This document shows, piece after piece, positions 9,355 through 58,292 of a DNA stretch of 64,000 nucleotides. The notes beneath the pieces are model-generated. The model made no database searches and had not been told where the DNA came from. It worked only from the letters and a program-made list of their open reading frames with translations. The position numbers and the translations under genes were made by a program. This DNA is from Pseudomonadota bacterium (GTDB taxonomy: Bacteria; Pseudomonadota; Alphaproteobacteria; Acetobacterales; Acetobacteraceae). Within the stretch, counting starts at the first letter, position 1. Each line of letters starts with the position of its first letter. The stretch spans positions 1-64,000 of the forward strand of contig JAJXWD010000003.1 in assembly GCA_021781835.1 (NCBI GenBank), given 5' to 3'.

Positions 9355-9855
9355 ATGCCAGACCATGCGGGCGGCGCGGCGCGGCGGGCTGAAGCGGTTT
9401 TGCTTTGCCATCTGGAAAATTCGACCGCCAGCTTCGACGGCGTGGCGGCGTTCGATATTTTGTGGCGGACTTCCAGCCTGATCTCGAAACTGGCGGCCGG
9501 TTTGCCGGAGGCCGCCACGCCCCCCGCCGTGGCGCCGGGGCAGGAGGAGGCGCAGCGGCTCAGCCAGATGACCCAGCTCGAGGCCCTGCGCCACGATGTC
9601 GATCAGATTTGCATGCTGCACGCGCAGCGCCATGATTATTTTTTGCAGATCAAAAGCGGGCTGGAAAAGATGCTGCGCCTCTTGATCATGGCCGACGGCG
9701 ATGACGCGGCCTCCATGACCGTTGACGATCTGCTGGGCCTGTATGTGAGCGAAGACCAGCGCCAGGCTCATGCCCGGGCGCTGGACAGGCCGTCACTTTC
9801 CTCACCCTGGCCGGGGGGTCAGGGTGAGGCGGGGGCGGGTTCGGCGTTGAGATAG
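9355..9855 (+). CDS. unknown protein paired with CheY-like regulator
   Basis: I do not recognise this 166-aa protein. It is mostly helical and has no signal peptide or membrane segment. The centre (about 60-115) is charged and amphipathic, with LEALRHDVDQICMLHAQRHD, and is followed by a conserved-looking DDLLGLYVSEDQRQAHARAL tail. It starts 6 nt after the CheY-like gene and is probably cotranscribed. The last 20 or so residues are low-complexity and overlap the convergent gene by 37 nt, so the true stop may be less conserved. It could be an effector or phosphatase for the regulator, which is inference. No CheZ Q-motif was found. Confidence 0.6.
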   Translation: MPDHAGGAARRAEAVLLCHLENSTASFDGVAAFDILWRTSSLISKLAAGLPEAATPPAVAPGQEEAQRLSQMTQLEALRHDVDQICMLHAQRHDYFLQIKSGLEKMLRLLIMADGDDAASMTVDDLLGLYVSEDQRQAHARALDRPSLSSPWPGGQGEAGAGSALR

Positions 9856-10238
9856 CCGCCGACCGACCCTGCCGTCTGGAAGGTGAAGGAACAGGGAATG
9901 ACGCTGCCATAAGCCACCGGATAGCTGAGCGTTTGCAGGCTCAGATGCAGGGAGGCCGGGCTTAGCGTGACCGTTTGCCCGGCGGGAATGGCCAGGCTGG
10001 TCACCGCCTCGCCCTGGGCGTTCAGCAGCGTGGTGGATTTGGCCAGCGGGCAATCCCAGCCGGTCATGACATCGGGGCTGGCGCCCTTATTGTGAATTTC
10101 GATGAACCCCTCGGTTGCCTTCAGGGACTGGCCGGTTTCCCACACCGCGCCGTGATCGAGCGAGATGATCACATCGGCGCTGGCGGGAGTGGCGAGGGCG
10201 AAACCGCCGAGCAGGAGGGCGGGCAGATAAAATTTCAT
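9819..10238 (-). CDS. PCu(A)C-like periplasmic protein with altered metal motif
   Basis: A 139-aa exported protein with a signal peptide (MKFYLPALLLGGFALATPASA). The remainder looks like the PCu(A)C copper-chaperone beta-fold: GFIEIHNKGASPDVMTGW, then AGQTVTLSPASLHLSLQ, then VPCSFTFQTAGSV-like strands. The canonical H(M)x10Mx21HxM copper set is not intact. The HxM near residue 100 reads HLS. It starts 4 nt inside the end of the GST gene. Copper delivery to oxidase would fit the genome's cox operon but is not supported by the residues, so the family call is tentative. Confidence 0.5.
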   Translation of the reverse strand: MKFYLPALLLGGFALATPASADVIISLDHGAVWETGQSLKATEGFIEIHNKGASPDVMTGWDCPLAKSTTLLNAQGEAVTSLAIPAGQTVTLSPASLHLSLQTLSYPVAYGSVIPCSFTFQTAGSVGGYLNAEPAPASP

Positions 10239-14124: not shown

Positions 14125-14769
14125 GTGAATATCGAGATAAAAAAAGCCGATGTAAGCAGCCGGGTGCCGAGCGGGGAGGCACGTCCCTCCCGCGCCGAGG
14201 CCGAGGCCGCCATTCGCACCTTGCTGCTGTGGGCGGGGGAAGACCCAAGCCGGGAAGGGCTGCTTGACACGCCGGCCCGCGTGGCCAAGGCATATGAGGA
14301 GTTTTTCAGCGGCTACCGGGAAGACCCCGAGGCGCTGCTCGCCCGCACCTTTGAGGAGGTGGAGGGCTATGACGAAATGGTCGTGCTGCGCGACATCCGC
14401 ATCGAGAGCCATTGCGAGCACCACATGGTGCCGATCATCGGCAGGGCCCATGTCGCCTATCTGCCCCAAACCCGGGTGGTCGGCATTTCCAAGCTCGCCC
14501 GCGTGGTCGATGCCTATGCCAAGCGCTTCCAGATCCAGGAAAAACTGACCGCGCAAATCGCCAATACCATCAACACGGTGTTGCAGCCGCGCGGGGTGGC
14601 GGTGGTCATCGAGGCCGGGCATCAGTGCATGTCCACCCGCGGGGTGCACAAGCCAGGCGCCAGCATGGTCACCAGCCGCATGCTCGGCGCGTTCCGCGAT
14701 GATCCCTCCACGCGCCGGGAGTTCCTGGCCATGATCTCGCCGCGCAGCTGCGCGGGCCTGGAAGCCTGA
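14125..14769 (+). CDS. folE: GTP cyclohydrolase I FolE
   Basis: Converts GTP to 7,8-dihydroneopterin triphosphate, the entry step to folate. Zinc ligands are visible in HCEHHMVPI and [10 protein letters not shown], and [19 protein letters not shown] is the family signature. No suitable ATG exists. I choose the GTG at 14125 because GGAG lies 8 nt before it (14113-14116) and the protein then has a normal length (214 aa). The track ORF extends upstream through thiD in another frame and is not accepted. Confidence 0.92.
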
Positions 14770-14884: not shown

Positions 14885-15913
14885 ATGTCACAGGTTGCCA
14901 CCAGCCAGGAAAACCGCCGTCTGGTTGCCATCTGGCTTTATCTGCTGGCCTTCATGATCTGGATCATGGTCGGTCTTGGCGGCTACACGCGCGACACCGG
15001 CTCTGGCCTCTCGATCATGGTCTGGGATCCGATCATCGGCATTTTGCCGCCCTTGAGCGCGGCCCAGTGGGCCAAGATGTTCGCGCTCTACCAGTCCATC
15101 TCGCAGTACCAGCTGCTGCACCAGGGCATGGATCTGGCCGGGTTCAAGCAGCTATTCTGGCCCGAATATTTTCACCGCCTGTGGGGGCGGCTGATGGGGG
15201 CGGTGCTCTTGCTGCCGCTCATTTTTTTCGCGTTGACCGGGCGGCTGGAGAAGCGGCTGATTCCCTGGCTGGGGCTGTTGTTCGTGCTGGGCGGGCTGCA
15301 AGGAGCCATTGGCTGGTTCATGGTCTCGTCGGGCTTTTTCCCCGATTCGGTGGCTGTCGAGCCGTGGCGCCTGTCGCTGCATTTCTTTGGCGCCATGTTC
15401 CTGCTCGGCGCCGTGCTCTGGACGGCCATGAGCGTGGAAACCCCGGTCCCCGCGCCCCAGCCCGGCCTGCTCGGCTTCAAACGCCTGACCCAGCTTGGCT
15501 TTGGGCTGCTGCTGCTCGCCATGTTCGGGGGCACGTTTGTTTCCGGCATTCACGGTATCGATGCGTTTGATGCCGCCCGTAACATCGGCACCGGCCTGCC
15601 GCCCGCCGGCTGGCCCATGAGCGGCATTTTTACCGATACCGCGACCATCATCTTCGACCATCAGCTGCTCGCGCTCATCGCGGCACTGGTCATTCTGGCG
15701 CTTGGCGTGCAGGCTTTCCGCCGAAATTGCCCGCGCCCCGTGCAGGATGGCGCCGCTCTGGCCGCCGGGCTGGTCATTTTGCAGTTCATTCTGGGCGTCA
15801 CCGCCCTGGTGTCCAAGATGATCGATATCGGCGTCGTCCACCAGATGAACGCCGTGCTGCTGCTGGGCGCGCTGCTGGGGCTGCTCCACCGTCTGCGCGG
15901 AGCCGTGAAATGA
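14885..15913 (+). CDS. ctaA: heme A synthase-like protein, COX15/CtaA family (paralog 1)
   Basis: A polytopic membrane protein of 342 aa from ATG 14885 (MSQVATSQENRR) with about eight hydrophobic segments. Family function: oxidation of heme O to heme A for aa3 oxidase. The N-half is canonical: GGYTRDTGSGLSI and EYFHRLWGRLMG. Four candidate heme histidines are present (FHRLWGR, LSLHFFGA, FDHQLLAL, VVHQMNAV). The C-half lacks the usual TWPLMDG-type loop and has a Gly/Pro-rich segment (NIGTGLPPAGWPMSG) instead. It overlaps a second family member by 4 nt. Confidence 0.85.
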   Translation: MSQVATSQENRRLVAIWLYLLAFMIWIMVGLGGYTRDTGSGLSIMVWDPIIGILPPLSAAQWAKMFALYQSISQYQLLHQGMDLAGFKQLFWPEYFHRLWGRLMGAVLLLPLIFFALTGRLEKRLIPWLGLLFVLGGLQGAIGWFMVSSGFFPDSVAVEPWRLSLHFFGAMFLLGAVLWTAMSVETPVPAPQPGLLGFKRLTQLGFGLLLLAMFGGTFVSGIHGIDAFDAARNIGTGLPPAGWPMSGIFTDTATIIFDHQLLALIAALVILALGVQAFRRNCPRPVQDGAALAAGLVILQFILGVTALVSKMIDIGVVHQMNAVLLLGALLGLLHRLRGAVK

Positions 15914-16947
15914 AAGCCGACCGCGCCCTGGGCAATTGGTGCCTGCTGCTCGCCTTCATGGTGTTTGGCATGGCCATTGGCGGCGGCCATGCGCGCACCA
16001 TTGGCGCCGGGTTTACCATCGAGGTTTGGCGGCCGATCACCGGCTTCATTCCCCCCACCTCGGCGGCCGACTGGGGGTTTCTTTTCGGGCTGTACCAGAA
16101 AACCGCCATTTTCCAGGCCCACCCGATTTCGCTCGCCCAGTACAAGGCCCTGTTTTGGCCGATGTTCATCGACCGTTGCTGGGGCCGCCTGATGGCGTTG
16201 GTCTTTCTGCTGCCCTTCGCCTATTTCTTCGCCACCGGCCGGCTGCGCGGTAAGCGCGCGCTGTGGATGCTGTTCATCTTCGGTCTGGGCGTGTTCCAGG
16301 CCAGCTGGGGCTGGTACATGGTGCAGACCGGCATGCAGCCGGGCGTGCTCTCGCCCCCGCCCGCCTGGGCCGGGCCGCATCTGGGCTCGGCGATGGTGAT
16401 TTTCTTCCTGGAAATCTGGACCGGCCTGACCTTCCGCCAGCCCGCGCCCGCGCCCCTCGATGGCGCGCGGGGGCTCAAGACCGCCCTGACCGTGAGCGTG
16501 GCATTGATCTGGTGCACGATTGTGTTTGGTGCCCTGGTGGCGACCAGCAACGCCATCACCGTCTATAACAGCTTCCCGACCATGGATGGAAATTGGCTGC
16601 CGCCCGGCATGTTCAGCCTGCACCCCTGGATCCTCAATTTTGTCGAGAACAAGGGCACCATTCAGTTTTTCCACCGGCTTCTGGCCACCATCACCGCGCT
16701 CACGGTGCTGGGAACGGGCTTTGCCGGGCTGCGCCTGCGCCCGCCGCCGGGGCTGCGCGATGTGCTGCTGCTGCTCATCGGCTTTGTCAGCCTGCAATAT
16801 CTGCTGGGCATGGTCACCATCGTGCTGGGCAATGTGAATATCGGCTATATCCACGAGCTGAACGCCATACTGTTGTTTGCAACGGCGGTCACCGCGCGCC
16901 ATATGCTGCGGGGCGCGAGCGGCGCGGCACAGCCGGCCGCCGCCTGA
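15910..16947 (+). CDS. heme A synthase-like protein, COX15/CtaA family (paralog 2)
   Basis: A second, divergent CtaA-type membrane protein (345 aa) translationally coupled to the first. Here the C-half is the canonical one: YNSFPTMDGNW, GTIQFFHRLLATITA, LQYLLGMVT and YIHELNAILL. The N-half is altered. The GGxTRxTxSGLS motif is replaced by GGGHARTIGAGFTI, and the first heme-ligand region reads FIDRCWGRL with Asp where paralog 1 has His. Three of the four expected histidines remain (including GPHLGS). The pattern suggests a heteromeric synthase or a specialised non-catalytic subunit. tldD follows after 14 nt. Confidence 0.82.
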   Translation: MKADRALGNWCLLLAFMVFGMAIGGGHARTIGAGFTIEVWRPITGFIPPTSAADWGFLFGLYQKTAIFQAHPISLAQYKALFWPMFIDRCWGRLMALVFLLPFAYFFATGRLRGKRALWMLFIFGLGVFQASWGWYMVQTGMQPGVLSPPPAWAGPHLGSAMVIFFLEIWTGLTFRQPAPAPLDGARGLKTALTVSVALIWCTIVFGALVATSNAITVYNSFPTMDGNWLPPGMFSLHPWILNFVENKGTIQFFHRLLATITALTVLGTGFAGLRLRPPPGLRDVLLLLIGFVSLQYLLGMVTIVLGNVNIGYIHELNAILLFATAVTARHMLRGASGAAQPAAA

Positions 16948-16961
16948 AGGATCGGAACAGT

Positions 16962-18398
16962 ATGTCAGCTTCTTTGCAAACGGCGCGGGCTCTTTTTCAT
17001 GACGGCCAGGGGCTCGACCCGGAACAGGCGCGGCGGATCGTCGCGGCGGGTCTGGCAGGCATGGATGATGGCGAGCTCTATCTCGAATATCGCGAGGCCG
17101 AGTCGGTCTCGCTCGATGATGGCCGCATCCGCGCCGCCGGCTTCGATACACGCCGTGGCTTCGGCCTGCGCGGCGTGCAGGGCGAGGCGGTCTATTTCGC
17201 CCATTCCGATGATATGACCATCGGCGCGCTCAGCCGCGCGGCCGCCACCATCGAAGCCGCCAGGAGCGTGGGGCCATCGTTCTCATGCGCGGCCCCCCCG
17301 GCGGCGGGCACACCGCTTTATGAGGGGCTGAATCCGCTGCGCGAAACCGATTTCGCCGCCCGCGCCGCGGTTTTACGCGAAATTGACGAGTTCACCCGCG
17401 CGGCGGATTCGCGGGTTGTGCAGGTCATGGCCAGCCTGGCCGGCGAGTGGCAGGTGATCGAGATCATCCGCCCCGAGGGGCCGGTGGTGGCCGATGTCCG
17501 CCCGCTGGTGCGCTTTAATGTCTCGGTGGTGCTGGAGCAGAACGGCCGGCGCGAGTCGGGCAGCCATGGCATGGGTGGACGCACCGGGTATGGGCCTTAT
17601 CTCGCGCCGCAGGCCTGGCAGGCGGCGGTGCGTGAGGCGATCCGGCAGGCCGAGGTCAATTTGGCCTCCGTGCCCGCGCCGGCGGGCGAGATGCCGGTGG
17701 TGCTTGGCCCTGGCTGGCCCGGCATTTTGCTGCACGAGGCGATCGGTCATGGGCTGGAGGGGGATTTTAATCGCAAGAATACCTCCGCCTTTGCCGGGCT
17801 CATGGGCAGCCGCATCGCCGCGCCTGGGGTCACGGTGGTCGATGACGGCACCATCCCCGGGCGGCGCGGCTCGCTGACCATCGACGATGAAGGCACGCCC
17901 AGCTCGCGCACCACGCTGATTGAGGACGGCGTGCTGGTCGGGTTTTTGCAAGACCGGCAGAATGCCCGGCTGATGAACATGCGCGCCACTGGCAATGGCC
18001 GGCGCCAATCCTACGCCCATGCCCCCATGCCGCGCATGACCAACACCATCATGCTGGGCGGGCAGGCTTCACGCGAGGACATGATCAAGTCCATCCAGCG
18101 CGGGCTTTATGCCGTGAATTTCGGCGGCGGACAGGTTGATATCACCTCGGGCAAATTCGTGTTCAGCGCCGCCGAGGCGTATTTGATCGAAAACGGCCAA
18201 ATCACCGCGCCAGTGAAGGGCGCGACATTGATCGGCAATGGGCCGGATGCGCTCACCAAGGTCGAGATGATTGGCGCGGACATGGCGCTTGATCCCGGCA
18301 TCGGTACCTGTGGCAAGAACGGCCAGGGTGTGCCCGTTGGCGTTGGTCAGCCGACCATCAAGCTCTCCGGCCTGACGGTGGGCGGCACCGCGGCGTGA
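16962..18398 (+). CDS. tldD: metalloprotease TldD
   Basis: The TldD/PmbA family forms a TldD-TldE heterodimeric zinc protease acting on small unfolded peptides. The 478-aa protein has the metal motif HEAIGHGLEGD, GTPSSRTTLIEDG, and a Gly-rich C-terminus (GIGTCGKNGQGVPVGVG). The start at 16962 (MSASLQTARALF) follows ctaA paralog 2 by 14 nt. The ORF-track start at 16593 lies inside ctaA2 and is rejected. No TldE/PmbA partner is in this window. A strong hairpin terminator follows directly. Confidence 0.95.
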   Translation: MSASLQTARALFHDGQGLDPEQARRIVAAGLAGMDDGELYLEYREAESVSLDDGRIRAAGFDTRRGFGLRGVQGEAVYFAHSDDMTIGALSRAAATIEAARSVGPSFSCAAPPAAGTPLYEGLNPLRETDFAARAAVLREIDEFTRAADSRVVQVMASLAGEWQVIEIIRPEGPVVADVRPLVRFNVSVVLEQNGRRESGSHGMGGRTGYGPYLAPQAWQAAVREAIRQAEVNLASVPAPAGEMPVVLGPGWPGILLHEAIGHGLEGDFNRKNTSAFAGLMGSRIAAPGVTVVDDGTIPGRRGSLTIDDEGTPSSRTTLIEDGVLVGFLQDRQNARLMNMRATGNGRRQSYAHAPMPRMTNTIMLGGQASREDMIKSIQRGLYAVNFGGGQVDITSGKFVFSAAEAYLIENGQITAPVKGATLIGNGPDALTKVEMIGADMALDPGIGTCGKNGQGVPVGVGQPTIKLSGLTVGGTAA

Positions 18399-51557: not shown

Positions 51558-53029
51558 GAGAGGTAGCGGGCGGTGAGGTGAGCCTCGAAATGCGCGGGGT
51601 TCAGGGGCTCGCCGGTGGCGTTGGCCAAAATCTCGTTAAAGCCGAGCGAGGCGCCGAGGCTGTGGACATGGGCCGTGAGCCAGCCTGAAAGCGGGGCGAG
51701 ATCGCCTGTGGCGAAATGCTCATCGAGCCCGGGCAGCGCGCGGCGGGCGGACGCCATGAGCTGGGCGGCGGCCATGGCGCCCAGAGTGTAGGAGGGGAAA
51801 TAGCCGATGGCGCCGTCATACCAATGAATGTCTTGCAGGCAGCCTTGGGCGTGCGTGGGCGGGGTGATGCCGAGCAAGGCGTGGAAGCCCTCATTCCAGG
51901 CGGCGGGGAGATCGGCCACGGGCAAATCGCCGCCGAGCAGCGCCTGTTCGAGGCGAAAGCGCAGCAGCACATGGGCGGGGTAGGTCAGCTCGTCGGCCTC
52001 CACCCGGATGAAGGAGCGCGCGACCCGGCGCAGGCGGGAGGTGAGCGCGGCCGGGCTGACCGGTTTGGCGAAAGCCTGGCCAAAGAGCGGCGCGAGATAG
52101 CCCAAATAAGCGTCCGACCGCGCGGCCTGCATCTCGATGATGAGGGACTGGCTTTCATGCATGGCCATGCCCGCGGCCTCGCCCACCGGCTGGCGGCGGA
52201 AGCTGGCGGGCAGGTTTTGCTCATAGAGCGCGTGGCCGGTTTCGTGCAGCACGCCCATGAGGGCAGCGCAGGGGTCTTGCTCATCATAGCGGGTGGTGAT
52301 GCGGATGTCGGTGGGGGTGCCGCCGCAAAACGGGTGGGCGGAAATATCGAGCCGGGCGGCGGTGAAATCGAGCCCGGCCGCGTGGGCGAGCGCGCGGGCG
52401 AGCGCGGCCTGCTCGGCCTCGGGGTATGGGCCCGCCGGCAGGGGCGTGGCCGGGCGGGTGGCTTGCAGGACCTCGGCCCTGGGCAAGGCGGTTTTGAGAA
52501 ACGCCTCGTACCGCGCGAAAATGCCGGCGGCCTGCGCGGCGGTGATGCCACGCTGATATTGGCTCATCAGCGCGTCATAGGGGGTTTGGCCAAGGGCCGC
52601 GCCCAATATGGCGGCGGTTTCGCGGGTGAGCGCCACCACCTCGGCCAATGCGGCTTCAACGGCTTTGAAATCGCTGGTCTTGCGGGCGGCGCGCCAGAGG
52701 CTCTCGCAGGTGCGCCCGGCGCGCACGCTGGCCTCGACCAGGTCACGCGGGAGGGCGGTGGCGCGGATATGGGCCTCGCGCATCAGGGTGAGGTTGGCCT
52801 CCTCCCAGTCGCCCGCGGCTTGGGCGATGGCGAGATCCTCGCCCAGCTCGGGGCTTGAGAGACACTCATGGGCGAGGCCGGCGAGCGTGGCCAGCTGCTC
52901 GCCGCGCGCCTCGGCGCCGCCGGGGGGCATCATGGCCGAGGCATCCCAGGAGAGCATGGCGGCGGCTTCGTTGAGGCAGGCGATGCGGGAGAAGCTTTGC
53001 GCCAGGCGCTCATAGGCGGGCTTGGTCAT
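51554..53029 (-). CDS. carboxypeptidase Taq (M32 metallocarboxypeptidase)
   Basis: Zinc carboxypeptidase of 491 aa. The metal motif HETGHALYEQ, the M32-specific HESQSLIIEMQ and DIRITTRYDEQDPCAALMG are intact. N-terminal SWDASAMMPPGGAEARGEQLATLA also fits the family. It lies between SURF1 and mnmE with 4-nt overlaps at both ends. No functional tie to respiration is obvious, so the linkage may be only translational. Confidence 0.93.
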   Translation of the reverse strand: MTKPAYERLAQSFSRIACLNEAAAMLSWDASAMMPPGGAEARGEQLATLAGLAHECLSSPELGEDLAIAQAAGDWEEANLTLMREAHIRATALPRDLVEASVRAGRTCESLWRAARKTSDFKAVEAALAEVVALTRETAAILGAALGQTPYDALMSQYQRGITAAQAAGIFARYEAFLKTALPRAEVLQATRPATPLPAGPYPEAEQAALARALAHAAGLDFTAARLDISAHPFCGGTPTDIRITTRYDEQDPCAALMGVLHETGHALYEQNLPASFRRQPVGEAAGMAMHESQSLIIEMQAARSDAYLGYLAPLFGQAFAKPVSPAALTSRLRRVARSFIRVEADELTYPAHVLLRFRLEQALLGGDLPVADLPAAWNEGFHALLGITPPTHAQGCLQDIHWYDGAIGYFPSYTLGAMAAAQLMASARRALPGLDEHFATGDLAPLSGWLTAHVHSLGASLGFNEILANATGEPLNPAHFEAHLTARYLS

Positions 53030-53721
53030 GGGGCGAGCAACCTTTTGCGGGCGAAAAAGATGAACTGAAAGCCCAGCGTGGCCGCGAGGCCGAACCAGGT
53101 GAGCGCGTACTGGTAATGGTTGTTGGGGGGGGTGGGCAAGTCTTGCGCGGGGATGGGCAGCAAAGCGCCGGGCGGCGGCGCGGGGCCAAGAACGATGAGC
53201 AGGTAAGGCGCGGCCTGGAGCCCCAGCGCGCGGGAGATGGCGGCGGGGTCGAGCGTGTAGAACAGGCGGTGGGCCGGGTCATCGGGCGCGGAGAACCAGC
53301 CGGGGTGTTCGGGCGCGCGGATATAGCCGACCGGGTTGGGCGGCAGGGTGAGGGCTTGAGGCGATTGCTCGGGCACCCAGCCGAGATCGACCAGGACGAT
53401 GGCGCCGGTGGGGCGCTGGCAAGGCTGGATCAGCTCGGCGCCGGGGATGGGGCCGGTGGGGGAGTCCTTGATCTCGTCGCCATAGAGGGCGGCCTGGCCG
53501 GGCAGCCACTTACAGATGATCTGCACTTTTTCAAAGGGCGAGGGGGTGGCGGGCAGCGGGATCGGCGCGGCCGCCTGGGCGGCGCGGATTTCGGCGATGA
53601 TGGCCTCTTTCCATGTCAGCCGGTGCAACTGCCAGACGCCCAGCGCCACCATGGCCGCCATGGCGGCCAAAGTGGCCAGACCCGGCGCCAGGATGCGCCG
53701 CCATTTATAGGGGGAGTTCAG
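53026..53721 (-). CDS. SURF1 family cytochrome oxidase assembly protein
   Basis: Inner-membrane assembly factor for aa3 oxidase (heme a insertion). TM1 is LAPGLATLAAMAAMVALGVWQL, followed by the HRLTWKEAII segment, the periplasmic domain with DLGWVPEQ and GYIRAPEHPGWFSAPDDP, and TM2 near the C-terminus (YALTWFGLAATLGFQFIFF). No ATG, GTG or TTG stands where the family should begin. I mark a CTG at 53721 overlapping the coxC stop (231 aa). An in-frame GTG at 53778, inside coxC, is the alternative. It overlaps carboxypeptidase Taq by 4 nt. Confidence 0.82.
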   Translation of the reverse strand: MNSPYKWRRILAPGLATLAAMAAMVALGVWQLHRLTWKEAIIAEIRAAQAAAPIPLPATPSPFEKVQIICKWLPGQAALYGDEIKDSPTGPIPGAELIQPCQRPTGAIVLVDLGWVPEQSPQALTLPPNPVGYIRAPEHPGWFSAPDDPAHRLFYTLDPAAISRALGLQAAPYLLIVLGPAPPPGALLPIPAQDLPTPPNNHYQYALTWFGLAATLGFQFIFFARKRLLAP

Positions 53722-54569
53722 CCCGCGACCACCGCGCTGCGGCCGAGATAATAGATGCAGACGAACAGGAACAGCCACACCACATCGACGAAATGCCAGT
53801 ACCAGGCGGCGGCCTCGAAGCCGAAATGGCGCGAGGGCGTGAACTGGCCGGCGCGGGCGCGGAAGAAGCACACGGTGAGGAAAATGGTGCCGATGATGAC
53901 ATGCAGCCCATGAAATCCGGTGGCGATGAAGAAGGACGAGGCGTAGATGCCGCCATGATAGAAGGGGAAGGGCGAATGGGTATATTCCCACGCCTGCCCG
54001 CACAAAAAGGACAGGCCGAGCAGGATGGTGATGCCAAGCCCGCGCACGAGGTTTTTCTGGTCACCCTCGAGCAGCGCGTGGTGCGCCCAGGTTATGGTGG
54101 TGCCCGAGAGCAGCAGCACCATGGTGTTGAACAGCGGGATGGCGAACGGGTCTATGCTGGTAACGCCCTGGGGGGGCCAGGTGGGCGCGAAGGCCGTGCC
54201 CATTTTCTCGGGAAAGAAGAAGTAATTGAAGTAATTCCAGAAGAAGGAGACGAAGAACATCACCTCGGAGGAGATGAACAGCGCCATGCCGTAGCGCAGC
54301 CCGACCTGGGTGACGATTTTGTGCAGGCCGGGCGTGCGGGATTCATGCACCACGTCTCGCCACCAGACAAACATGATGGTGGCAACCGAGAGCAGGCCGA
54401 TGGCGAGCAGGATGAAATTGTGAAAATGCGCGGCGAGGATGATGCCGGCGAAGGTGGTCATGGCCGAGGCGGCGCCAAAAAGCGGCCAGAGGCTGGGGTC
54501 AACCAGATGATATGGATGCGGAACGGAGCCTTTGACCTGGTCCTTGGCGGTGTGGAGATAGCCGCTCAT
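53718..54569 (-). CDS. ctaE: cytochrome c oxidase subunit III
   Basis: A seven-helix subunit (283 aa) of aa3 oxidase. The start MSGYLHTAKDQVKGSVPHPY and the family blocks WWRDVVHES, RYGMALFISSEVMFFVSFFW, THSPFPFYHGGIYASSFFIATG, and AWYWHFVDVVWLFLFVCIYY near the C-terminus are all clear. The acidic membrane residue of SEVMFF is conserved. It lies 40 nt after the small protein and directly before SURF1. Confidence 0.96.
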   Translation of the reverse strand: MSGYLHTAKDQVKGSVPHPYHLVDPSLWPLFGAASAMTTFAGIILAAHFHNFILLAIGLLSVATIMFVWWRDVVHESRTPGLHKIVTQVGLRYGMALFISSEVMFFVSFFWNYFNYFFFPEKMGTAFAPTWPPQGVTSIDPFAIPLFNTMVLLLSGTTITWAHHALLEGDQKNLVRGLGITILLGLSFLCGQAWEYTHSPFPFYHGGIYASSFFIATGFHGLHVIIGTIFLTVCFFRARAGQFTPSRHFGFEAAAWYWHFVDVVWLFLFVCIYYLGRSAVVAG

Positions 54570-54609
54570 TTAGCACATTCCCCCTCATAGGCTTATTGTT
54601 GCCTGGTTG

Positions 54610-54810
54610 TTACCACATCTGCCCCAGCTCGTGGAGCTTTATCATCACGAAGACATAGATGACGAACGCGAACAGGGCGAGCGCCGCCACGGTGTAGAGG
54701 TTGCGCCGCCGGCGGCGGCGGAGAAAGGCTTCGCGCTCATCATCGTCCCAGCCGCTTTGGCCAAGCTCGACATGGGGCATGCGGTCATCCTCGGGCCCCG
54801 CGCTGGCCAT
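54610..54810 (-). CDS. small single-pass membrane protein of the oxidase operon
   Basis: A 66-aa protein with an acidic N-terminus, an Arg cluster (LRRRRRRNLYT) and one C-terminal membrane helix (VAALALFAFVIYVFVMIKL). It occupies the CoxF-like position between ctaB and ctaE, where many alphaproteobacteria also carry cox11/ctaG. It starts 1 nt after the ctaB stop. The function is unknown. Assembly or stability of the oxidase is likely from location. No Cox11 domain is present. Confidence 0.72.
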   Translation of the reverse strand: MASAGPEDDRMPHVELGQSGWDDDEREAFLRRRRRRNLYTVAALALFAFVIYVFVMIKLHELGQMW

Positions 54811-54811
54811 G

Positions 54812-55762
54812 TCAGACCAGCCGGTCGACGGCGACGGCCGCGAAGATGATGAACAGATAGAGCAGGGAAAATTTGAAAGCGGCGCGGGCGGGCTTGTCGC
54901 CGGTCAGGCTGTGGCCGTGGGCGTCTTGCCGGTCGGCGTACACGCCCCAGCAGAAATAGAGAAAGGCCGCGCTCATGACCAGGGCGGAGAGGCCATAGAC
55001 CGGGCCCAGCAAATGCAGCGGCCAGGGCGAGACCGCCACCAGCAGCAAAATGACCGCATAGACCAGCACGTTGAGCCGGGTGTGTTTGGCGCCCTTGACC
55101 ACCGGCAGCATGGGAATGCCCGCCTTGGCGTAATCCTTGGCGGCATAGAGCGAGAGCGACCAGAAATGCGGCGGGGTCCAGAAGAACACGATGGCGAACA
55201 GCAGCACCGGCAACAGCCCGATATGGCCGGTGACCGCGGCCCAGCCGATGATGGCCGGAAATGCCCCCGCGCCGCCGCCAATGACGATGTTTTGCGGCGT
55301 GCGGCGCTTGAGCCACATGGTGTAGATGACGGCGTAATAGAAAATGGACACCGCCAAGCTGGCCGCCGCGCATAGATTGGTGGCCATGCCCAGCAGCACC
55401 ACCGAGACGATGGAGAGCACGATTCCGTAATCGAGCGCGGCCTCGGGGTTGATGCGTCCGGCCGGGATGGGGCGCGAGACCGTGCGCTTCATCAGCGCGT
55501 CGATGTCGCGGTCATACCACATATTGATGGCGCCCGCCGCGCCCGCGCCCAGCGCGATGCAGAAAATGGCGATCGCGGCCGCGAACACGCCAATGTGGCC
55601 GGGCGCGATGAACAGGCCGATGGCGCCGGTGAACACCACCAGGCTGATGACCCGGGGTTTGAGCAGCAGCAGCCAGTCGCGCGGGTCGGCGCGCGGGGGT
55701 TTCACGGCGTCGATCGCGGGGGCGGGCGGCTCTTGGGCGGCGGTGATCTGATCGGTCTGCAT
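54812..55762 (-). CDS. ctaB: heme O synthase (protoheme IX farnesyltransferase) CtaB
   Basis: UbiA-family membrane prenyltransferase that farnesylates heme B to heme O, the substrate of the CtaA paralogs at 15-17 kb. The two Asp motifs are NMWYDRDIDALMKRT and, after the FFWTPPHFWSLSLYAAKDY loop, YADRQDAHGH. I start at 55762 (MQTDQITAAQ, 316 aa). The track ORF runs back through ctaD antiframe. There are about nine membrane helices. It is 13 nt downstream of ctaD. Confidence 0.94.
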   Translation of the reverse strand: MQTDQITAAQEPPAPAIDAVKPPRADPRDWLLLLKPRVISLVVFTGAIGLFIAPGHIGVFAAAIAIFCIALGAGAAGAINMWYDRDIDALMKRTVSRPIPAGRINPEAALDYGIVLSIVSVVLLGMATNLCAAASLAVSIFYYAVIYTMWLKRRTPQNIVIGGGAGAFPAIIGWAAVTGHIGLLPVLLFAIVFFWTPPHFWSLSLYAAKDYAKAGIPMLPVVKGAKHTRLNVLVYAVILLLVAVSPWPLHLLGPVYGLSALVMSAAFLYFCWGVYADRQDAHGHSLTGDKPARAAFKFSLLYLFIIFAAVAVDRLV

Positions 55763-55775
55763 TGGGGGGGTAATG

Positions 55776-57380
55776 TTATCGAATGACCGGGACGTCAAGG
55801 AACGTATGCTGGGGCGCGGGGCTGGGCACCGCCCATTCGAGCGTGGTGGCGCCTTCGCCCCAGTAATTATCGGCCAGCGCCTCCTTGGAGGTGAAGATGC
55901 GGTAGAGCACGTAGAAGAACACCAGCGTGGAGGCCCCGGAAATGAGCGCGCCGATGGAGGAGACATAATTCCAGCCGGCGAAGGCGTCGGCATAATCGGG
56001 GTAGCGGCGGGGCATGCCGGCGAGGCCCAGGAAATGCATGGGGAAAAAGGTGAGGTTGACGCCGATGAAGAAGGTCCAGAAATGCACCTTGCCCCAGAAT
56101 TCGGGATAGGGGTGGCCGGTCATCTTGCCGATCCAGTAATAGAACCCGGCGAAGATGGCGAAGGCCGCGCCCATGGAAAGCACATAGTGAAAATGGGCGA
56201 TGAGGAAATAATCGTTGTGCAGTTCCTGGTCGAGCGGGGCGTTGGCCAGCACCACGCCGGTGGCGCCGCCGATGACGAACAGGAAGATGAACCCGACCGC
56301 CCACAGCATGGGGGTTTTGAACTCGATGGAGCCGCCCCACATGGTGGCGATCCAGGAAAACACCTTGATGCCGGTGGGCACGGCGATGACCAGGGTGGCG
56401 ACCTCGAAATAAATGCGGGAATCGGTGCTGATGGCCGAGACGAACATGTGGTGCGCCCACACCAGGAAGCCCACGAACCCGATGATGACCATGGCATAGG
56501 CCATGCCCAGATAGCCAAAGACCGGCTTTTTGGAGAAGGTGGAGACGACGTGGCTGATGATGCCGAAGGCCGGGAGGATCATGATATAAACTTCCGGATG
56601 GCCGAAGAACCAGAAGAGATGCTGGAACAGCACCGGGTCGCCCCCGCCCGCGGGCTCGAAGAAGGAGGTGCCGAAATTGCGGTCCATGATGAGCATGGTC
56701 ACCGCGCCCGCCAGCACCGGAATGGCCAGCACCAACAAAAACGCCGTGACCAGGATGGCCCAGCAGAAGAGCGGCATTTTATGCATGGTCATGCCCGGCG
56801 CGCGCATGTTGAGGATGGTGGCGATGAAATTGATGGCGCCCAGGAGCGACGAGATGCCGACCAGATGGATGGAGAAGAGCGTGAAATCGGTCGCCACGCC
56901 GGGGGAGTATTGGGCATTGTCGAGGGGGGGGTAGAGGGTCCAGCCGGCGCCGGTGCCGGTGCCGAGCAGCAGCCCCAGCATGACGAAAACAAAGCCCGCC
57001 ACCAGGAACCAGAAGCTCATGTTGTTGAGGCGCGGAAACGCCATGTCGGGAGCGCCGATCATCAGCGGCACGAACCAGTTGCCCATGCCGCCGATGAGGG
57101 CCGGCATGACGAACCAGAAGATCATGATCAGCCCGTGGGCGGTGATGATGGCGTTCCACTCGGTGCCCGAGGTGACGATATGGTTGTGCGGATACATGAG
57201 CTGGAGGCGCATGATCATGGACAGCACCCCGCCGACGCACGCCCCCACAAAGGCCGCGATGATGTAGAGCGTGCCGATGTCTTTGTGGTTGGTGCTCATC
57301 AGCCAGCGGGCGGCGAAGCTCTGCTGGTGGTGCTCATGGCCGCCATGAGCCTGGAAATCGTCATGCGTGGTGGTGGACAT
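55776..57380 (-). CDS. ctaD: cytochrome c oxidase subunit I (aa3 type)
   Basis: Catalytic subunit of 534 aa with 12 membrane helices. [35 protein letters not shown], the cross-linked His-Tyr and Glu site [16 protein letters not shown], the K-channel TGIKVFSW and the heme ligands in [11 protein letters not shown] are intact. The usual D-channel entrance Asp before WNxxIT appears as Ser ([13 protein letters not shown]). The N-terminus is His-rich (GGHEHHQQ). It lies 18 nt after ctaC. Confidence 0.96.
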
Positions 57381-57398: not shown

Positions 57399-58292
57399 TC
57401 AGTTCGCGGCATCGGCCAGTTTGAGGGGGAGCTGGGGCCGGATGACCGGGGAGGGCGGCACGGTATTGTCGGTGTAGGTGGCGAGCGCCTGCTTGGTCCA
57501 GGCCAGATAATCGGCGAGCGGTACGGCCTTGATCTCAATGGGCATGGCATCATGTCCGAGGCCGCAAATCTGGTTGCATTGGCCAAAATAGGTGCCGGGC
57601 TTGGTGATGATGGTCCAGCTGGTGAGGGTGGTGCCGGGGATGGCGTATTTCTGCACGCCCAATGAGGGCAGGTAGAAACCGTGCAGCACATCGCCCGAGG
57701 TGATGACGAAGCGGATCTTCTCACCCACGGGCAAGACCATGGGGTGATCGACCGAGAGGCGGCGGATCTCGCCGGGCTGGATCTGGGCGTCGGGGATCAT
57801 GTAGCTGGAATAATCGAGCCCGGGCACGGCGTTGTAATTATATTCCCAGTACCATTGATGGCCGGTGACCGTGACGGTCATGTAGGGGTTCGAATCGTCG
57901 GCCTGATAGAGGATCATCTTCACCGAGGGCACGATGATGACCACCAGCAGCAGGCTGGGGATGGTGATCCAGAGGATTTCGATGAGGGTGTTGTGGGTAA
58001 CCGTGCCGGGCACCGGGTTGGCGCGGGCATTGAAGCGGATGAACACATAGACCATCAGCACGCCGACAAAGGCGACCACGCCGGTCATGATCCAGAGCAC
58101 ATAGCGCATCAGCCAATCGACCTGCGCCTCCATGGGCGAGCCGGGGACGGGCAGCCACATTTGCCAGGCGTGCGGCGCGTTGACATAGGCATCGGCCGCC
58201 GCGGTCGGGTCGGCGCTTTGCGCGGCCGCCGCGTGGGCAAACAGAAAGAGCAGCGACAAGCCAAAAAGAGCCGATAGGTTTCCCCGCTTCAT
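57399..58292 (-). CDS. ctaC: cytochrome c oxidase subunit II
   Basis: A 297-aa subunit with a signal peptide (SALFGLSLLFLFAHAAAA), two membrane helices (near 68-90 and 108-128) and a periplasmic CuA cupredoxin domain. VTGHQWYWEYNY is the electron entry strand, and the CuA ligands are in DVLHGFYLP and GQCNQICGLGHDAMPI. No fused cytochrome c domain is present, so an external c-type cytochrome is needed. A candidate is the membrane cytochrome at 23.3-23.8 kb. It is the first oxidase gene, 106 nt after the binding-protein gene. Confidence 0.95.
   Translation of the reverse strand: MKRGNLSALFGLSLLFLFAHAAAAQSADPTAAADAYVNAPHAWQMWLPVPGSPMEAQVDWLMRYVLWIMTGVVAFVGVLMVYVFIRFNARANPVPGTVTHNTLIEILWITIPSLLLVVIIVPSVKMILYQADDSNPYMTVTVTGHQWYWEYNYNAVPGLDYSSYMIPDAQIQPGEIRRLSVDHPMVLPVGEKIRFVITSGDVLHGFYLPSLGVQKYAIPGTTLTSWTIITKPGTYFGQCNQICGLGHDAMPIEIKAVPLADYLAWTKQALATYTDNTVPPSPVIRPQLPLKLADAAN

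Follow-up and report, generated by a model that had tools for sequence, protein, structure and literature searches.

A tandem pair of overlapping genes, ctaA1 and ctaA2, provides the sole heme A synthase (CtaA) genes, with no third copy, of the genome from which the window comes (the whole 64,000-nucleotide stretch of DNA analyzed here). We give about an even chance to CtaA2 being a non-catalytic, co-translated partner of a catalytic CtaA1, probably within one hetero-oligomer whose existence we infer. The features of the window that bear on this are as follows.

14155-14769, plus strand: folE, GTP cyclohydrolase I, upstream of the pair.
14885-15913, plus strand: ctaA1 (copy 1), 342 residues, predicted catalytic heme A synthase.
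15910-16947, plus strand: ctaA2 (copy 2), 345 residues, a CtaA paralog with M85 and D88 where E57 and H60 would be expected.
15910-15913, plus strand: the ATGA stop/start overlap (4 nt) of ctaA1 and ctaA2, which makes translational coupling likely.
16962-18398, plus strand: tldD, a PmbA/TldD metallopeptidase and the first gene downstream of the pair.
53026-53751, minus strand: surf1, heme A insertion factor.
53718-54569, minus strand: coxC, subunit III.
54812-55738, minus strand: a ctaB-like heme O synthase of the UbiA family, producing the CtaA substrate.
55776-57380, minus strand: coxA, aa3 oxidase subunit I, the user of heme A.
57399-58292, minus strand: coxB, aa3 oxidase subunit II.

The genome is 2.90 Mb in size, 99% complete and assigned to Acidocella; Acidocella facilis ATCC 35904 and an Acidocella metagenome-assembled genome were among the named matches. 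Its aa3 operon (coxB, coxA, the ctaB-like gene, coxC and surf1, all on the minus strand between 53026 and 58292) lies in the pair's own window, giving heme A an evident user; there is no cox11 between ctaB and coxC (54570-54811). The oxidase subunit I genes of the genome comprise one aa3 CoxA and two CyoB-like proteins, and nothing pointed to another oxidase that uses heme A. The two CyoB-like quinol oxidase genes are ~4.3 kb apart on contig C41 of this genome (72020-77732). Elsewhere in the window (9819-10238, minus strand) is a gene for a small exported protein that by eye resembles a copper chaperone of the PCuAC type whose motif is changed.

CtaA1 and CtaA2 are 36% identical to each other, and both scored well against Pfam PF02628 (264.6 and 258.7 bits, respectively; cut-off 29.9). 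Against NCBIfam NF045570, the equivalog model for alphaproteobacterial heme A synthase, both fell below the cut-off of 550 (187.9 bits for CtaA1 and 165.3 for CtaA2). Searches of PDB sequences with either copy returned no synthase, and the solved synthases 6A2J and 8AW5 were found by fold comparison only. The models we compared were built from 16 sequences and resemble both structures with moderate TM scores (0.55-0.71); the best match was 6A2J in each case, for CtaA1 with a probability of 1.00, TM 0.60/0.65 and an E-value of 1.6e-3, and for CtaA2 with TM 0.61/0.67 and an E-value of 2.4e-4.

In published accounts of this fold, the heme O site lies in the N-terminal bundle together with Glu57, the proposed catalytic residue, and the C-terminal bundle holds heme b on the third and fourth His (PMC8239418, PMC12808453), making the N-domain the catalytic one and the C-domain that of heme B (PMC8239418). 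A 2026 survey found Glu57 strictly conserved and only His or Asn at the first heme-ligand position, H1, where replacement by Leu abolished activity and left heme binding intact (PMC12808453); an earlier classification lists the rare natural variants E57K and E57N (PMC8239418). We aligned 38 copy-1 and 39 copy-2 Acidocella proteins with 90 single-copy CtaA from the class and family, using B. subtilis CtaA numbering for E57 and H60. In every single-copy protein (90/90) the residue at E57 was Glu and those at H1 to H4 were His. The same was true of all 38 Acidocella copy-1 proteins, which have the catalytic Glu and four heme-ligand His, the residues in the window CtaA1 being E94 (equivalent to E57), H97, H166, H259 and H319. 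The C-half of this protein has lost the FPxMxG loop and reads HQ at position 260 in place of HR, changes that affect no ligand.

Copy 2 is altered at the opposite end. The window CtaA2 reads MFIDR (M85, D88) where ExxHR is canonical, and keeps H157, H255 and H315 along with the FPTMDG and QFFHR motifs. Throughout Acidocella, copy 2 has Asp at H1 (His60) in 39/39 proteins, with H2, H3 and H4 kept, and Met at E57 in 38/39, the remaining one having Asn; in Acidiphilium and the genus g56, Asp occupies H1 in 7/7 and Met E57 in 6/7. CtaA2 thus has neither of the residues expected of a functional heme A synthase, Glu57 and His60 (or Asn). Judging from the published mutants, it very probably lacks the ability to convert heme O to heme A, and CtaA1 is predicted to be the heme A synthase enzyme.

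The divergence extends well beyond these sites. Among 53 columns that were at least 95% conserved in the 90 single-copy CtaA (37 in the N-half and 16 in the C-half), the window CtaA1 retained 35/37 and 8/16, respectively, and CtaA2 retained 24/37 and 13/16. The difference between the conserved fractions of the N- and C-halves ranged from +0.32 to +0.51 over all Acidocella copy-1 proteins, from -0.24 to -0.16 over all copy-2 proteins, and from -0.12 to +0.10 over 88 full-length single-copy proteins. Since both copies fall outside the single-copy range in opposite directions, their complementary pattern is far outside chance, and it is fixed in Acidocella. Copy 1 of Acidiphilium and g56 has a canonical C-half, matching 14/16 conserved columns and including the NtFPLMxG and HR motifs; there it is the first outer loop that is modified. 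A preliminary description of this locus, made from the nucleotide sequence, had given the coordinates, the ATGA overlap and the motifs it quoted correctly, and its claim of complementary divergence was borne out by the opposite skew of every Acidocella copy 1 and copy 2. It had also reported Asp in place of the first heme-ligand His in copy 2, which holds for all the Acidocella proteins; the accompanying loss of the catalytic Glu it had overlooked.

The pair proved to be both stable and confined to a small group of genera. All 38 Acidocella genomes had two CtaA matches, and these were adjacent and on the same strand in 37, the last one being interrupted by contig ends. In Acidiphilium the pair was present in 11/11 genomes with an intact locus (a genome with a contig-end fragment and an incomplete genome with no CtaA fall outside this count), and it was also present in one genome of g56. 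Over the three genera the two genes were same-strand neighbors in 45/45 readable loci, 25 of which were called with the exact -4 overlap. The downstream neighbor tldD adjoined the pair in nearly all Acidocella and Acidiphilium loci, and folE was the upstream neighbor in part of Acidocella only. No tandem pair was found elsewhere, in 300 genomes from the Acetobacteraceae, 385 from the class and 398 from the phylum (~1,250 genomes were searched overall). Second matches in other Acetobacteraceae and Pseudomonadota were rejected as pairs: they turned out to be fragments, a single gene matched in two pieces by the profile, hits below the threshold, or distant copies not in tandem. One Acidocella metagenome-assembled genome (G014) had two tandem ctaA pairs, L043 and L044, both close to contig ends. 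Their copies group with different partners, those next to G016 being the first copy from L044 and the second from L043, which could reflect an exchange of partners, the presence of two strains, or chimerism of the assembly. Tandem co-translation and strict co-retention of the pair are supported: a relative with an aa3 oxidase and one copy alone, which the preliminary description had named as the case to look for, was not found among the genomes of the pair clade with an intact locus. We found no description of tandem CtaA, or of CtaA in Acidocella or Acidiphilium, in an open-access subset of the literature, and an earlier one is possible.

In a maximum-likelihood tree all pair genes formed one clade (100/99), sister to the single-copy Acetobacteraceae CtaA of genomes without an aa3-type CoxA, which are probably acetic acid bacteria. 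The copy-2 proteins of all three genera grouped together as a clade (100/100) whose stem is long, at about one change per site, and the grouping of the copy-1 proteins as one clade gave p = 0.50 in an AU test. Because the pair genes make up one clade and the copy-2 genes one within it, the tree shows that the tandem duplication happened once, in an ancestor shared by Acidocella, Acidiphilium and g56, before these genera diverged; copy 2 then went through a burst of change. Separate duplications in the first two genera were rejected, since the copy-2 proteins of both belong to one clade. As copy 1 of Acidiphilium and g56 has a canonical C-half where copy 2 already has Asp and Met, the residues indicate that the catalytic residues of copy 2 were lost first and that degradation of the copy-1 C-half is a later, Acidocella-specific step; symmetrical reciprocal loss is therefore not how the pair arose. 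CtaA2 must have had a selected role of its own before CtaA1 came to depend on it in any way.

CoxA of the pair clade is an ordinary, vertically inherited aa3 subunit, 75% identical to its nearest single-copy relatives, and the few changes specific to the clade at positions fixed elsewhere include no His; the idea that the pair is tied to a different oxidase was rejected on these points. Compared with other alphaproteobacterial CoxA, the changes at such positions are F89W, L125F, L132F, T369V and V373A, possibly near the hemes.

In the reading we prefer, CtaA1 would remain the enzyme, with the catalytic Glu and both substrate-heme His in its N-terminal four-helix bundle and both heme-b His in its C-bundle. 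CtaA2 no longer has the catalytic Glu or the first of the substrate-heme His, carries fixed Met and Asp in their places, and retains the heme-b bundle. The Aquifex enzyme is a homotrimer with the C-bundles (TM5, TM6) at its core and the N-bundles at the periphery (PMC7327177), and CtaA2, translated together with CtaA1, would probably assemble with it through these core C-bundles; a joint, trimer-like assembly is possible because both homologs are co-translated and keep the heme-b His. As a partner subunit CtaA2 might stabilize the complex, supply a canonical heme-b bundle, and hold or pass on heme A. In Acidocella, the order of changes suggests that the CtaA1 C-half later drifted because CtaA2 covered part of its role. 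CtaA1 may not need CtaA2, as it looks complete alone, most clearly in Acidiphilium, and any function within the pathway would also be consistent with the tandem arrangement and joint retention of the two genes.

The alternative that CtaA2 is a redundant duplicate heading for loss draws on the loss of its catalytic residues and is hardly credible: the gene is kept in every intact genome of the three genera, no pseudogenes of ctaA2 were seen, and omega, calculated for copy 1 and copy 2 against the closest relative (89% and 90% identical), was 0.137 and 0.090, respectively. These values support purifying selection on both copies. Copy 2 also has 18 residues, including H27, D88 and E316, that show essentially no variation among 46 copies and are seldom seen in single-copy proteins. 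With so low an omega and so many invariant residues the gene is not decaying, and its altered N-half, where omega was 0.059 even though the catalytic residues are lost, has some function. The same constraint and the new invariant H27, D88 and E316 would suit a model in which both copies are enzymes, CtaA1 carrying out the canonical step and CtaA2 using its N-site, remodelled by Asp88 and the new His27, for another heme step or another heme. We find this improbable given that the proposed catalytic Glu is gone, that only His or Asn was seen at H1 in a large survey (PMC12808453), and that the window genome, with its one aa3 CoxA and two CyoB-like proteins, gives no hint of a second oxidase using heme A. 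Slightly less improbable is a strict obligate heterodimer, in which each copy lacks one half-function and neither works alone. The preliminary description had argued for such a heteromer from reciprocal loss, and canonical residues are indeed lost in complementary fashion in Acidocella; the loss is lopsided, however, as Glu57 and all four His are still present in CtaA1, and the step from reciprocal loss to an obligate heteromer is not supported, given this full catalytic and ligand set and the canonical C-half of copy 1 in Acidiphilium and g56, where copy 2 is nonetheless always retained.

Cox11 is the CuB chaperone, and its distribution raises another role for CtaA2. Cox11 (PF04442) was absent from 29/29 pair-bearing genomes tested from Acidocella, Acidiphilium and g56, despite their vertical aa3 CoxA, and present in 16/17 of the Acetobacteraceae with a single CtaA that were tested from outside the sister clade, the exception being G134. 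With CtaA1 as the sole synthase, CtaA2 could then be a separate oxidase assembly factor in a lineage without Cox11, either a heme A chaperone or a helper in CuB/heme a3 maturation in CoxA. The catalytic site of CtaA2, with fixed new residues rather than scrambled ones, fits such a factor, and there is a functional precedent in CtaM (DUF420), which works at a late stage, perhaps on CuB, in bacteria that have no Cox11 (PMC9145763). We nevertheless regard this as rather unlikely, since the association of Cox11 with the pair rests on one clade and on one or two events and is statistically weak, five sister-clade genomes also lack Cox11 (and lack an aa3-type CoxA), and one genome of the class (G051) lacks Cox11 despite having aa3 and only one CtaA; in addition, neither CtaA1 nor CtaA2 gave a Pfam match to DUF420. 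The fuller version, by which a former heme A synthase turned assembly factor, a pseudo-enzyme acting as a metallochaperone-like subunit in heme A handover or CuB/heme a3 maturation, lets an aa3 lineage live without Cox11, we consider a little more doubtful again.

The preferred pairing of a catalytic CtaA1 with a non-catalytic CtaA2 departs from each known system it resembles. It shares with the type 2 CtaA/Cox15 proteins of alphaproteobacteria and mitochondria the Pfam family, the eight-helix two-bundle fold, outer loops without Cys pairs and, in copy 1, a complete catalytic and ligand residue set; unlike them, it is always tandem, its Acidocella copy 1 lacks the C-half FPxMxG and HR, and in its copy 2 both E57 and H60 are gone. 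Natural CtaA proteins with other residues at catalytic or ligand positions are on record (E57K+H123N, E57N, H60N, H278D; PMC8239418), but the combination of Asp at H1 with Met at E57 is not listed among them, and here the variant is the fixed partner of an intact copy. The archaeal four-helix CtaA of the Aeropyrum type illustrates that more than one chain can make up a heme A synthase, although that enzyme is half-length and homodimeric, whereas the pair consists of two full-length, differing chains. CtaM, an oxidase assembly factor of Bacillus and Staphylococcus, has been proposed to be distantly related to the CtaA superfamily, is dispensable for heme A synthesis and works without Cox11, but has only four helices.

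Defects in Cox15 cause fatal human disease. Heme A synthase raises questions of mechanism, of why it is oligomeric, of the role of the second heme, and of how heme A and copper are delivered to oxidase subunit I, and published work on the enzyme notes the absence of an in vitro assay. The pair offers a natural system in which one chain has the catalytic bundle and the other the cofactor bundle only, making the two roles genetically separable. If it is true that CtaA2 functionally replaces Cox11, these bacteria would have a new route of aa3 oxidase assembly.
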